Origin: Lysobacterales bacterium
GTDB taxonomy: Bacteria; Pseudomonadota; Gammaproteobacteria; Xanthomonadales; SZUA-38
NCBI GenBank assembly: GCA_028285525.1
Contig: JANQOZ010000023.1
Span: forward strand, 1 to 64,000
Length of the DNA stretch: 64,000 nucleotides
Direction: 5' to 3'
Positions 1,229 to 8,711 of the stretch are shown here, piece after piece; the stretch's first letter is position 1, and each line of letters begins with the position of its first letter. Position numbers and translations under genes: made by a program. Under the pieces are notes generated by a model. That model made no database searches. It was not told the origin of the DNA and saw only the letters and a program-made list of their open reading frames with translations.

Positions 1229-1324
1229 CTGGCATTTTTCGGCAATTTTTGCTAGTGTTTCGGGTTGGCCTGTTCAGGTCCTGCTCCCTCCGCGTGATGA
1301 TCTGGAGCGGAACTTAACCGGCCC

Positions 1325-1350
1325 TTAGCACTCTAATCCGAGAGTGCTAA
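1325..1350 (+). promoter_or_regulatory. CIRCE-like inverted repeat upstream of rpoH
   Basis: TTAGCACTC (1325-1333) and GAGTGCTAA (1342-1350) are perfect 9-bp arms identical to the CIRCE element bound by the heat-shock repressor HrcA. The classical spacer is 9 bases; here it is 8. The element lies 15 bases before the rpoH ATG (1365) and 5 bases before its ribosome binding site, so HrcA bound here could block transcription, or the hairpin could act in the 5' UTR. hrcA itself is not in the window. Confidence 0.75.
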
Positions 1351-1364
1351 AACTGGAGCAAGCG

Positions 1365-4475: not shown

Positions 4476-5027
4476 ATGAGGGGGAAAAAAGAACAGGAAT
4501 TTGAAGCGCTGTGGCAGCGCCACGGACCCGGCGTCCGAGCCAGACTCGTCAACCAGCGGCTCCTGGACCCTGCGATCGACGTCGACGACATCGAACAGGA
4601 AGTCAGAATCCGCCTGTGGCGCGTGCTGCAGACTGAGACACAGGTGACCCATGCTGCGTCTTATCTGAGAACCGTCGTCAACAGTGCCCTGATCGACGCG
4701 GTCCGGCGCGCCCAGGCGCGCGAGTCCAGTCGCCGGGGCGGAGAGTTCAACGAGCAGATGCACACAGCCACCAACAACGAAGGCCTCGCCGACCCGGTGC
4801 AGGGGCAGCAGCGCATGCAGGAACTGTCGGCCGCCGCCGAGTCAGCGCTGGAAGCGATGAGCGCCAACCGGCGCCGCGCGGTATCGCTGCGCCTTCACGG
4901 TCTTGCGGTCAACGAGATCGGCGCGCTTTGCGGCTGGTCCAGCGCGAAGGCCCGAAATCTCGTGTACCGTGGCCTCGAGCAGCTTCGCAGCGAGCTGGGC
5001 AAGCGAGGAATTGACCTTGAAAGTTAG
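4476..5027 (+). CDS. ECF-like sigma-70 family RNA polymerase sigma factor
   Basis: The 183-residue protein has a region 2 core (DIEQEVRIRLWRVL, then YLRTVVNSALIDAVRRAQ) and a region 4 helix-turn-helix near 130-175 (RRRAVSLRLHGLAVNEIGALCGWSSAKARNLVYRGLEQL). It is the size of small alternative sigma factors that respond to envelope or other signals. The start of the next gene lies inside its 3' end, and that gene encodes a one-pass membrane protein, the usual place for an anti-sigma factor. A third coupled gene encodes a PDZ-TPR-CHAT protein. The likely role is to direct transcription of its own operon and perhaps targets elsewhere. The start at the ATG 4476 lies 30 bp from the divergent chaC start. 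Confidence 0.85.
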   Translation: MRGKKEQEFEALWQRHGPGVRARLVNQRLLDPAIDVDDIEQEVRIRLWRVLQTETQVTHAASYLRTVVNSALIDAVRRAQARESSRRGGEFNEQMHTATNNEGLADPVQGQQRMQELSAAAESALEAMSANRRRAVSLRLHGLAVNEIGALCGWSSAKARNLVYRGLEQLRSELGKRGIDLES

Positions 5028-5589
5028 TGCGCAGGAACTGTCGAAGCTCATCAGCCGGCAGGATGATACGAACCCGCCGACCGCTGAGGAGCTGGCGGCT
5101 TTGGTCGACCAGACGCTGCCGCCGGACCGACGCGAAGCCGTGCTCAATCACCTGGAGCGCAGCCCGGACAGCGCCCGCGCCGTCGCCATCGCCCTAGAGC
5201 CGGGCGCAACCTCAGGCGGCGCCGGGTTCCGGTGGCTGGCAGTCGCTGCTTCAGCGGTCGCGGCCGTCGCGCTGGCGTCTGTCGTGTGGCTGGGGGGTAC
5301 TCCGGAAGAAGACACGCTGCGCGCCGCCGACCCATCCATTTCGCCCGCTCCCGGGGCCGTTATCTCCACCCCGGACGACCTGTTCAGCTGGCCGGCGCCG
5401 CCGGACCTTTCGCCTCGACGGGTCAGAATCATGAGCGCCGCCGCTGAGACCATCTGGCTGTCGGAACCGACCAGCCCGCCGGTAGATCTGCCGGCCGGAA
5501 CGGTCGCCAGCGGCAAGACCTACCTGTGGCAGCTGGAAGACGTGGACGGCACGGTGGTTGCCGGGCCCAACTGGTTCCGAATGCCGTGA
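5017..5589 (+). CDS. Putative membrane anti-sigma factor
   Basis: A protein of 190 residues from a TTG at 5017, chosen because AGGA (5006-5009) lies 7 bases upstream and the start overlaps the sigma-factor stop by 11 bp. Residues 20-55 (EELAALVDQTLPPDRREAVLNHLERSPDSARAVAIAL) look like an anti-sigma domain helix pair but lack the His/Cys zinc ligands of the ZAS type. One membrane segment follows (about 72-92, WLAVAASAVAAVALASVVWL). The remaining 100 residues would be periplasmic and form a small beta-rich domain (FSWPAP...TYLWQLEDVDGTVV). Layout and position suggest it holds the preceding sigma factor at the membrane; no database match was checked. It overlaps the next gene by 4 bp (GTGA). Confidence 0.7.
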   Translation: MKVSAQELSKLISRQDDTNPPTAEELAALVDQTLPPDRREAVLNHLERSPDSARAVAIALEPGATSGGAGFRWLAVAASAVAAVALASVVWLGGTPEEDTLRAADPSISPAPGAVISTPDDLFSWPAPPDLSPRRVRIMSAAAETIWLSEPTSPPVDLPAGTVASGKTYLWQLEDVDGTVVAGPNWFRMP

Positions 5590-8500
5590 CACTCGCAGGC
5601 CGGTGGCGGTTGGTGCGCCCCACGCTTCTGCTGATCTGCCTGCTGAGTACGCCGCTCCAGGCGCGCGTGCTGATCACCGAGGTCGTGCCCGGCCTCGCGG
5701 GAGAGCGGGCGGGTGTGCAGGTGGGCGACGTGCTCCTGGCCTGGGAACAGGGCGAACTACAGCGGCCGCTCACCTGGCCGATCGAGGTGGTGCGCGCAGC
5801 GGAGGTGGACGGTCTGCTCGAAGGCGGCACCGTCACCCTGCTCCGGGACGGACAAACGCTGAACCTCTCGCTGGGCCCCGGGGTCTGGGGCATCGCAACC
5901 GTACCCGACGCAGAGGCTGGCGGTGCTCTCGCATCGCTCTACCGACAGCTTCCCGAGCTGACCTCGCAATCCCTCGAACCGTTCCTCGCCGGCGCACGCA
6001 ACCAACCTGAGATCGACGATCGGCTGGCGCTGTACTGGCTGGCCGGTGATCACTTTCAGCAGATCGACGACCTTGAGAGCGCCGGTCGCTGCTGGCAGGA
6101 GGCCCTGGCGCTGGCAACCGATCCCGCCGAGCAGGCGCTGCTGCGCATGCGCTACGCCCGGGCGCTGATGAACACGTGGCAATCAGACGAGGCCCGCCGG
6201 CTGTATCAGCAGGCCCTCGAATTCTGGGAAGCGGTGCCGGCACCTCAGCATCAGCTGCAGCTCCAGACCCTGCTGGGCTTCGCCGCCTTCGAGCAGCGGG
6301 ACCTGCCCGCCGCAGACGCGGCGTTCAGTGCCGCGACGGCCCTGGTCCGTGAACACCCTGCCAGCCAGCCTCTGGCAGCGTCGGCGCTGCGAGGGATGGG
6401 CCAGGTACGCTCAATCCAGGGCGGCTTTGATGACGCGATAGCGCTCGGCAACGAGGCGCTTGATCTGGCCAAGGCCTACGCTCCCCGATCGCGGATCGAG
6501 GCGAAGGTCCTCAACTTTCTCGGCTACACGGTTGCGCGCACCCACGACGTGGCCGACGGCGAGGCCCTGATTCGCGACGCGATCGCGCTCGCTGACGAGG
6601 TCGAAGCGAGCGGCTTCACCTCGGCGGGTTTTCGCAACAATCTGGCGCTGATCTACTACCTGCGGCGGGACTACGCCTACGCCCAGACGCTTTACGAACA
6701 GGCGCTGGAGCGCTTCGAGCGGCGCAACCCTGTGAGCCCCGTTGTTGCCCGCACCCGCTACAACATTGCGCTGACCCTGGCCCGCCAGGACCTTCAGGCC
6801 GAATCGGCCGCCATGCTGGAGTCGGTCCTGGCGCTGCAGCGGCAGCTGGTACCCGGCACGGAGGATGAGGCGCGCACGCTCCACAGCCTCGCGTTTCGCT
6901 TCGCGGCAGCCGGTGAGCTGACCAAAGCCATTTCGACCGGCCGCGAGGCGGTTCAGCGCTACCGCGAGCTGTTGCCCGAGAGCTATCTGCTGACGAGCTC
7001 GCTCCATAAGCTTGGCGACATTTATATCCGAGCCGGGGACTATGCGGCCGCTCGAGATGCGCTTGAGGAGTCGTTAGAGATGGCCCGCCGTATCTCTCCG
7101 GAGAGTCAGGTTCACGCCGAGTCAGCCTTCGACCTGGGCCGCGTCTTGAGCGAGCTCGGCGAACCTTCGCTGCCGCTGTTTCGCGAAGCCGTCGAGGTGG
7201 TCGAGTCGCTGCAGGCTCGGCTCGGGGGTGGCGACGACGCCGTCAGCCGGTTTCGGGAGTACTACAGCCGATACTTCCGCCGCTTGATCGAAGCTGAGCT
7301 GGAGGCCGGCAACGATGAACCGGCGTTTGCGATCTCCGAACGGTATCGTGCGCAAAGCTTTCTCGCCGTGCTCGGCTCACGCCCCGCGGCGCTGACCAGC
7401 CGCCTTCCCCCGTCGCTCAAGGAACGCTGGAGCGATGCCCAGGCAGCCTATGAGGCGGCTCTCAAGGCGGCGGCCAGCGCTCCGGAGGACGAGCTGGAGG
7501 AGCTAAACCAGCAGGTCATCGTGGCACGGCAGGCCTGGCGGGACGCCGGCGACGAGCTGCGCAGCGCCGGTGGCGTCGGACACGTGATCGCCCCGCGCGC
7601 GGCCACGCCCGAGCTGGTGGCCGAATCTCTGGAGGACGGCCAGGTGGTCATCAGCTACGTCTCCCAGCCGGCGCACACCGACGTATTCTTGATCGATGCC
7701 GCCGGCATGCTGAGTCATCATCGGCTCGCGTTTTCCCGGGCACAGCTCAGTGAAACCGTCAACCAGATCCGCGTCCTGATGGCGGTACCGGACGCCGGCT
7801 CCGCGAGCCAGGAAACGCTCGAGCGGAAGCTTAAGATACTCGGGGAGGCCCTGATTGCTCCGCTGCTGCCCGTGCTGGATGACGTCAAGAGGCTGGTGGT
7901 GATTCCTGACGGAGAGCTTTGGCTGGCCCCGCTGGCCGCGCTGATCACCGACGACCGCTATCTGCTTGAGCGGTTTGAGGTGCAGCTCGGCTGGTCAGCG
8001 ACGGCCTACCAGGCCGACCGACCGACCCCGGTCAACGAGCTGCTGCTGGCGATGGCAGATCCCGGCATCGTCAGCGGCCCAGGTAATGGTGAGGACACAA
8101 CCCGGGACAACGTCCGCCAGGGTCAGCCCTCACTGCCGGGCGCGCGCCAGGAGGTTAACCGGATCGCGAGTTTCTTCTCCAAGCGCGAGGTGTATCTCGA
8201 TACCCAGGCCAGCGAACGGAATTTTCGCCAGGTCGCCGCAAGTGCGGATGTGGTGCACGTCGCCGCGCATGCCGTCACCCGGGTCGACCCGCCGATCGAG
8301 TCGTACCTCCAGCTCGAGGGCGATGAGCAGCACGATGGGCGATTAATGGCCTGGGAAGTGCTCGAGAATCTGAATCTCAAAGCCCAGCTCGTCACGCTAT
8401 CGGGGTGCGCCACAGCCCTGGGAGAAGGTGCGGGCGGCGAGGGGCTGATGGGACTGACCCGCGCTTTTGGTGTCGCCGGGGCCCAGCGCGTGCTCGCGAG

Positions 8501-8711
8501 CCTGTGGCCGGTTTCGGACCAGGCGACCGCTGGCCTTATGACCACGTTCTATGAGAACCGCGCGGCCGGTATGGACGATGCTCAGGCGCTGCGCGAGGCC
8601 CAGCTCACGTTCTTGCGTCCTTCCTTTACCCAGCGGCTGCTGAGCGGTTTCGACGACAGCCGCAGCCACCCATTTTACTGGGCCGCATTTTCGCTCTACG
8701 GGGCGCGATAG
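5586..8711 (+). CDS. Exported PDZ-TPR-CHAT domain protein (caspase-like peptidase)
   Basis: The 1041-residue protein starts at a GTG at 5586 that overlaps the upstream stop (GTGA), which gives a clear signal peptide (Arg-rich start, PTLLLICLLSTPL core, cleavage after LQA). Residues of about 27-110 look like a PDZ domain (VLITEVVPGLAGERAGVQVGDVLLAW...TVTLLRDGQ). About 115-610 is a TPR-type helical array (repeated A-x-x-x-Y-x-x-A-L). The last 270 residues or so are a CHAT caspase-like domain with His895 in VVHVAAHA and Cys941 in LSGCATA, the expected catalytic dyad, followed by GEGLMGLTRAF and W-P-V-S-D. A periplasmic peptidase tied to a sigma/anti-sigma pair is unusual. Its 3' end overlaps the convergent monooxygenase gene by 16 bp. 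Confidence 0.9.
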   Translation: MTLAGRWRLVRPTLLLICLLSTPLQARVLITEVVPGLAGERAGVQVGDVLLAWEQGELQRPLTWPIEVVRAAEVDGLLEGGTVTLLRDGQTLNLSLGPGVWGIATVPDAEAGGALASLYRQLPELTSQSLEPFLAGARNQPEIDDRLALYWLAGDHFQQIDDLESAGRCWQEALALATDPAEQALLRMRYARALMNTWQSDEARRLYQQALEFWEAVPAPQHQLQLQTLLGFAAFEQRDLPAADAAFSAATALVREHPASQPLAASALRGMGQVRSIQGGFDDAIALGNEALDLAKAYAPRSRIEAKVLNFLGYTVARTHDVADGEALIRDAIALADEVEASGFTSAGFRNNLALIYYLRRDYAYAQTLYEQALERFERRNPVSPVVARTRYNIALTLARQDLQAESAAMLESVLALQRQLVPGTEDEARTLHSLAFRFAAAGELTKAISTGREAVQRYRELLPESYLLTSSLHKLGDIYIRAGDYAAARDALEESLEMARRISPESQVHAESAFDLGRVLSELGEPSLPLFREAVEVVESLQARLGGGDDAVSRFREYYSRYFRRLIEAELEAGNDEPAFAISERYRAQSFLAVLGSRPAALTSRLPPSLKERWSDAQAAYEAALKAAASAPEDELEELNQQVIVARQAWRDAGDELRSAGGVGHVIAPRAATPELVAESLEDGQVVISYVSQPAHTDVFLIDAAGMLSHHRLAFSRAQLSETVNQIRVLMAVPDAGSASQETLERKLKILGEALIAPLLPVLDDVKRLVVIPDGELWLAPLAALITDDRYLLERFEVQLGWSATAYQADRPTPVNELLLAMADPGIVSGPGNGEDTTRDNVRQGQPSLPGARQEVNRIASFFSKREVYLDTQASERNFRQVAASADVVHVAAHAVTRVDPPIESYLQLEGDEQHDGRLMAWEVLENLNLKAQLVTLSGCATALGEGAGGEGLMGLTRAFGVAGAQRVLASLWPVSDQATAGLMTTFYENRAAGMDDAQALREAQLTFLRPSFTQRLLSGFDDSRSHPFYWAAFSLYGAR

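Follow-up and report, generated by a model that had tools for sequence, protein, structure and literature searches.

The closest described counterparts of the element considered here are the CIRCE operators of groESL and dnaK, at which HrcA acts and in which two arms are held nine bases apart (TTAGCACTC-N9-GAGTGCTAA). From work in other bacteria it is known that HrcA is inactivated when GroE is titrated. In E. coli, control of the heat-shock sigma factor is known to act on its translation and stability, and the P3 promoter of rpoH is σE-dependent. Promoters recognized by σE follow a pattern of a GGAACTT -35 element, a spacing of about 16 bp and a TC-type -10 element. To our knowledge, E. coli has neither hrcA nor CIRCE. 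A CIRCE element on rpoH itself was predicted in 2004 for Geobacter sulfurreducens, as entered in Table 8 of that study (PMC545781).

Results

A CIRCE element with perfect arms precedes rpoH

In the stretch of DNA analysed here (the window, 64,000 nucleotides), rpoH occupies positions 1365–2222 of the forward strand and encodes the heat-shock sigma factor σ32. The 285-residue product scores 397 bits against TIGR02392, above the curated cut-off of 323, and is the only protein of the genome to exceed that cut-off, which rules out a second, specialised rpoH paralogue. A GGAG ribosome binding site is evident in the sequence at 1355–1358 (forward strand), 6 nt 5′ of the ATG.

The initial annotation had described perfect 9-bp CIRCE arms beside this ribosome binding site, separated by eight rather than nine bases, and both points were borne out by the window sequence and by a motif scan of the genome. 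The left arm TTAGCACTC (1325–1333, forward strand) is followed by the spacer TAATCCGA (1334–1341, no strand assigned), where nearly all other CIRCE sites have nine bases, and by the right arm GAGTGCTAA (1342–1350, forward strand). The complete 26-bp element, TTAGCACTC-TAATCCGA-GAGTGCTAA, thus spans 1325–1350 and ends 14 nt 5′ of the rpoH ATG. Its arms match the consensus at 18/18 positions and can be extended to 10 bp (TTAGCACTCT-N6-AGAGTGCTAA). Dinucleotide shuffles of the window gave an expectation of no matches to the element, and when the 6.23-Mb genome was scanned with spacers of 7–10 bases this was the sole CIRCE with perfect arms.

Control by HrcA presupposes that the repressor is encoded, and the search of the rest of the genome recovered a single, intact hrcA (product of 345 aa; TIGR00331, 320 bits) adjoining grpE and dnaK. 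The accompanying scan for additional CIRCE sites returned one other convincing example, 5′ of groES-groEL, with the normal 9-base spacer (TTAGCACTC-CCGTATGGA-GAGTGCCAA). A CIRCE-like site at C98:170323, which carries three mismatches, was attributed to chance because a reversed-pattern control yielded three matches. This leaves two predicted HrcA targets, groESL and rpoH. No further CIRCE with an 8-base spacer was present in the genome when up to three mismatches were allowed.

CIRCE at rpoH accompanies hrcA across the order

Next, the regions upstream of rpoH in relatives were compared. A sample of 77 genomes of the order, mostly one per genus, was checked for rpoH and hrcA, and 75 rpoH upstream regions were found and read; CIRCE was counted as present if a canonical, GCAGTC-type or half-changed site occurred with no more than four mismatches. 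By this measure CIRCE precedes rpoH in 52/54 genomes with hrcA and in 2/21 without it (Fisher p 1.4e-13, for genomes that are related and so not independent). The genomes without hrcA are spread over families f1, f2, f6–f9 and f11, so several separate events probably lie behind the absence of the gene, even though the genomes are not independent. This tracking of hrcA by CIRCE across the order supports HrcA control of rpoH. Where the adjacent gene could be recognized, almost all CIRCE sites in the order precede either groES or rpoH.

The two exceptions that have CIRCE at rpoH and lack hrcA are G015, in which the site is degenerate with a spacer of 10, and G709. The latter assembly (L123, L240; 1.0 Mb, 96% complete) carries a perfect 9-spacer CIRCE on rpoH and an 8-spacer CIRCE on groESL. 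No hrcA was detected in this 96% complete assembly, and the gene may be absent from the fragmented 1.0-Mb assembly rather than from the organism.

The association extends beyond the order. Of 80 relatives of this RpoH taken from GTDB genomes, dozens, from beta- and gammaproteobacteria, have CIRCE just 5′ of rpoH, with a spacer that is always nine bases, barring one very weak match. Taken as a prediction from the operator, HrcA control of rpoH is likely here, and it is of a kind already known. The proposal of the initial annotation that HrcA represses the heat-shock sigma gene and so joins the two circuits is thus supported by the co-occurrence with hrcA; however, the link is widespread and had already been predicted for Geobacter, and the proposal left out the promoter described below.

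The same comparison bears on the idea that the inverted repeat forms an mRNA hairpin next to the ribosome binding site and serves there as a thermosensor or stability element. Folding of a longer RNA does give a 10-bp hairpin adjoining the ribosome binding site (z −2.8). However, the repeat is nearly always missing from genomes without hrcA, and half-changed sites, in which TTAGCACTC is combined with GACTGCTAA and pairing is broken, are common; it is mainly on these two grounds that an RNA thermometer or stability hairpin was rejected. Moreover, a transcript that starts at about 1343, as the putative promoter predicts, would contain the right arm only, which makes a hairpin unlikely. Overall, we regard this explanation as highly improbable.

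Arm variants occur in several parts of the order. In a number of genomes, mostly of family f2 (L124–L153), the rpoH CIRCE is symmetrically rewritten to TTAGCAGTC-N9-GACTGCTAA, a form apparently also present at groES in some genomes, and half-changed sites are present in other families. HrcA may have undergone a shift in specificity. Relative to the gene the variants are unevenly distributed, at rpoH and groES alike, with the left-arm form TTGGCACTC far commoner than the right-arm form GAGTGCCAA. The possibility that this orientation bias reflects RNA pairing was set aside, as other positions give no support.

A predicted σE-type promoter lies beneath the operator

The initial annotation read the site as an HrcA operator alone and overlooked a σE-type promoter sequence, GGAACTT-N16-TCTAA, at 1309–1336. 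The predicted -35 element, GGAACTT (1309–1315, forward strand), was identified by motif scan and by its conserved spacing; the -10 element, TCTAA (1332–1336, forward strand), lies 16 bp past it and was recognized from sequence and conservation. The TC of this -10 element is formed by the last two bases of the CIRCE left arm. The pattern GGAACTT-N15..17-TCNNA has a single match in the window, against 0.17 expected, and the strict σE-type pattern has one occurrence in the 2.18 Mb of the source genome that was scanned.

The two elements are held in fixed register in relatives. A GAAC core is found 15 or 16 nt 5′ of CIRCE at 46/53 rpoH sites of the order, compared with 0/18 groES sites (p 1.5e-11). 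The beta- and gammaproteobacterial rpoH set gives 23/42 against the same 0/18 (p 2.3e-5), so that about half of that set is without GAAC at this distance. Likewise, the A of TCNNA coincides with the third base of the CIRCE spacer at 43/53 rpoH sites of the order and 26/42 of the beta/gamma set, compared with 1/18 at groES. In some relatives that carry hrcA, nothing matches the σE pattern used. When the two species of the source genus are compared, the segment from the -35 element to the ATG is identical at 52/56 positions, compared with 57/86 farther upstream. In G003, a genome of the same family with neither hrcA nor CIRCE, AGAACTT-N16-TCTGA still precedes rpoH. A σE-type promoter beneath the operator best explains the position of the site.

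A search of 2.18 of the 6.23 Mb (35% of the genome) did not find rpoE, and the best ECF matches in that 2.18 Mb are 34% and 31% identical to RpoE and score far below the cut-off for that factor. Elsewhere in the window, an ECF-type sigma factor is encoded at 4476–5027, near a 1061-residue protein (5526–8711) that by eye resembles a TPR plus CHAT-protease-like protein. An inverted repeat at 337–393 (GGCACATCGAG...CTCGATGTGCC), followed by a run of T, is an apparent intrinsic terminator 5′ of an SDR gene (455).

An alternative is that the operator does bind HrcA, yet rpoH is transcribed mainly from a σ70 promoter, either farther upstream or built from CIRCE itself. For the first version, a block at about 1229–1265 is partly conserved in the genus. 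For the second, the left-arm TTAGCA would serve as the -35 element and the right-arm TGCTAA as an extended -10 element, which the 8-base spacer places 17 bp from each other; many betaproteobacteria have AAT or TAT after CIRCE, giving TGCTAANAT, and lack GGAACTT at the usual distance. However, a consensus scan of 1100–1400 yielded no σ70-type promoter, and a transcript from the CIRCE-built -10 would start at about 1360, past the ribosome binding site. Moreover, the σE-type -35 element is kept at a fixed distance both here and in relatives. Transcription mainly from a σ70 promoter is therefore considered unlikely.

The 8-base spacer is confined to the source genus at rpoH

At rpoH, the two genomes of the source genus were the only ones in which a spacer of eight bases was observed; the rpoH CIRCE of G002, a genome of the same family, has nine. 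Set against the 9-base spacing by which CIRCE is recognized, the rpoH site is one base short, and it is filed here as a spacer variant of CIRCE, nine bases being near-universal and not a proven requirement. The shorter spacer displaces one arm by 1 bp relative to the other. Promoter geometry is unaffected, because the -10 element is tied to the left arm.

Such a spacer might mark a poorly bound operator, with HrcA control of rpoH in the course of being lost from the genus. Indeed, 8-spacer sites with TTRGCACTC/GAGTGCYAA arms are very rare, occurring in 2/369 genomes of the class, the source genome and G709 (at groESL), and G709 has no detectable hrcA. On the other hand, both species of the genus have perfect arms even as the DNA farther upstream diverges, and loss of hrcA is almost always accompanied by loss of the arms. 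Decay of the operator thus appears quite unlikely. Rather, the perfect arms in both species suggest that the 8-spacer operator is in use; we expect this genus-level variant of the 9-base operator to be bound by HrcA.

HrcA proteins were also aligned over their DNA-binding residues to account for the spacer and arm variants, and no clear cause emerged from the alignment. The HrcA of the genus has SSAT in place of SPAT in the presumed recognition helix, together with other changes.

Discussion

The sequence elements, their conservation at a fixed spacing and the co-occurrence of CIRCE with hrcA are direct observations. The elements are probably the parts of an HrcA operator superimposed on a σE-type rpoH promoter, at which HrcA would occlude the promoter until chaperones are titrated.

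HrcA binding, use of σE, the start site and repression are the steps that we infer. GGAACTT-N16-TCTAA (1309–1336) would be recognized by RNA polymerase with σE or a σE-like ECF factor, and initiation at about 1342–1345 would leave a leader of about 21 nt that includes the GGAG ribosome binding site. With active HrcA bound at 1325–1350, the -10 element and the start site would be covered and transcription thereby blocked. Unfolded proteins that titrate GroE would leave HrcA inactive and release groESL and rpoH together; σ32 would then be made, provided that σE is active.

A broader proposal, which we favour with some reserve, is that this composite element occurs in many beta- and gammaproteobacteria that carry hrcA. 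In such species the HrcA operator would contribute part of the σE -10 element, and a site of about 42 bp would join envelope stress to chaperone load. Loss of hrcA would remove the operator and could leave the σE-type promoter behind, and the 8-base spacer would correspond to an altered affinity for HrcA. In Xylella, hrcA and rpoH both increase during nitrogen starvation (PMC3224663), and this joint rise argues against strong repression in that organism.

Thus, rpoH itself appears to have a repressor that senses chaperone load seated on its σE-type promoter. The same arrangement appears in most of the relatives with hrcA that were examined and in many further beta- and gammaproteobacteria. If this is true, the σ32 regulon is nested under HrcA, and envelope and cytoplasmic stress meet at one site. 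The prediction for hrcA-bearing species is that hrcA mutants will show raised, σE-dependent transcription of rpoH.

Among open papers, none was found in which CIRCE and a σE promoter are described together on rpoH; as evidence of novelty this is weak. In the portions of PMC545781 consulted, no σE promoter is described at the Geobacter sulfurreducens rpoH CIRCE. Otherwise, as given there, the Geobacter site is the same operator on the same gene, likewise with perfect arms; it differs in having a spacer of nine and in lying 51 nt 5′ of the start.

Compared with the CIRCE/HrcA operators of groESL and dnaK, the rpoH site has the same arms, and the genome that carries it also has hrcA and a groESL site; it differs in its spacer of eight rather than nine, in its target, rpoH, and in overlapping a σE-type promoter. 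The resemblance to E. coli rpoH P3 lies in the promoter, which there too has a GGAACTT-like -35 element, a spacing of about 16 bp and a TC-type -10 element driving rpoH, whereas in the source genome the -10 element is shared with an operator. Two features of the locus go beyond the known kind: the operator overlaps a conserved σE-type promoter, and its spacer is specific to the genus.
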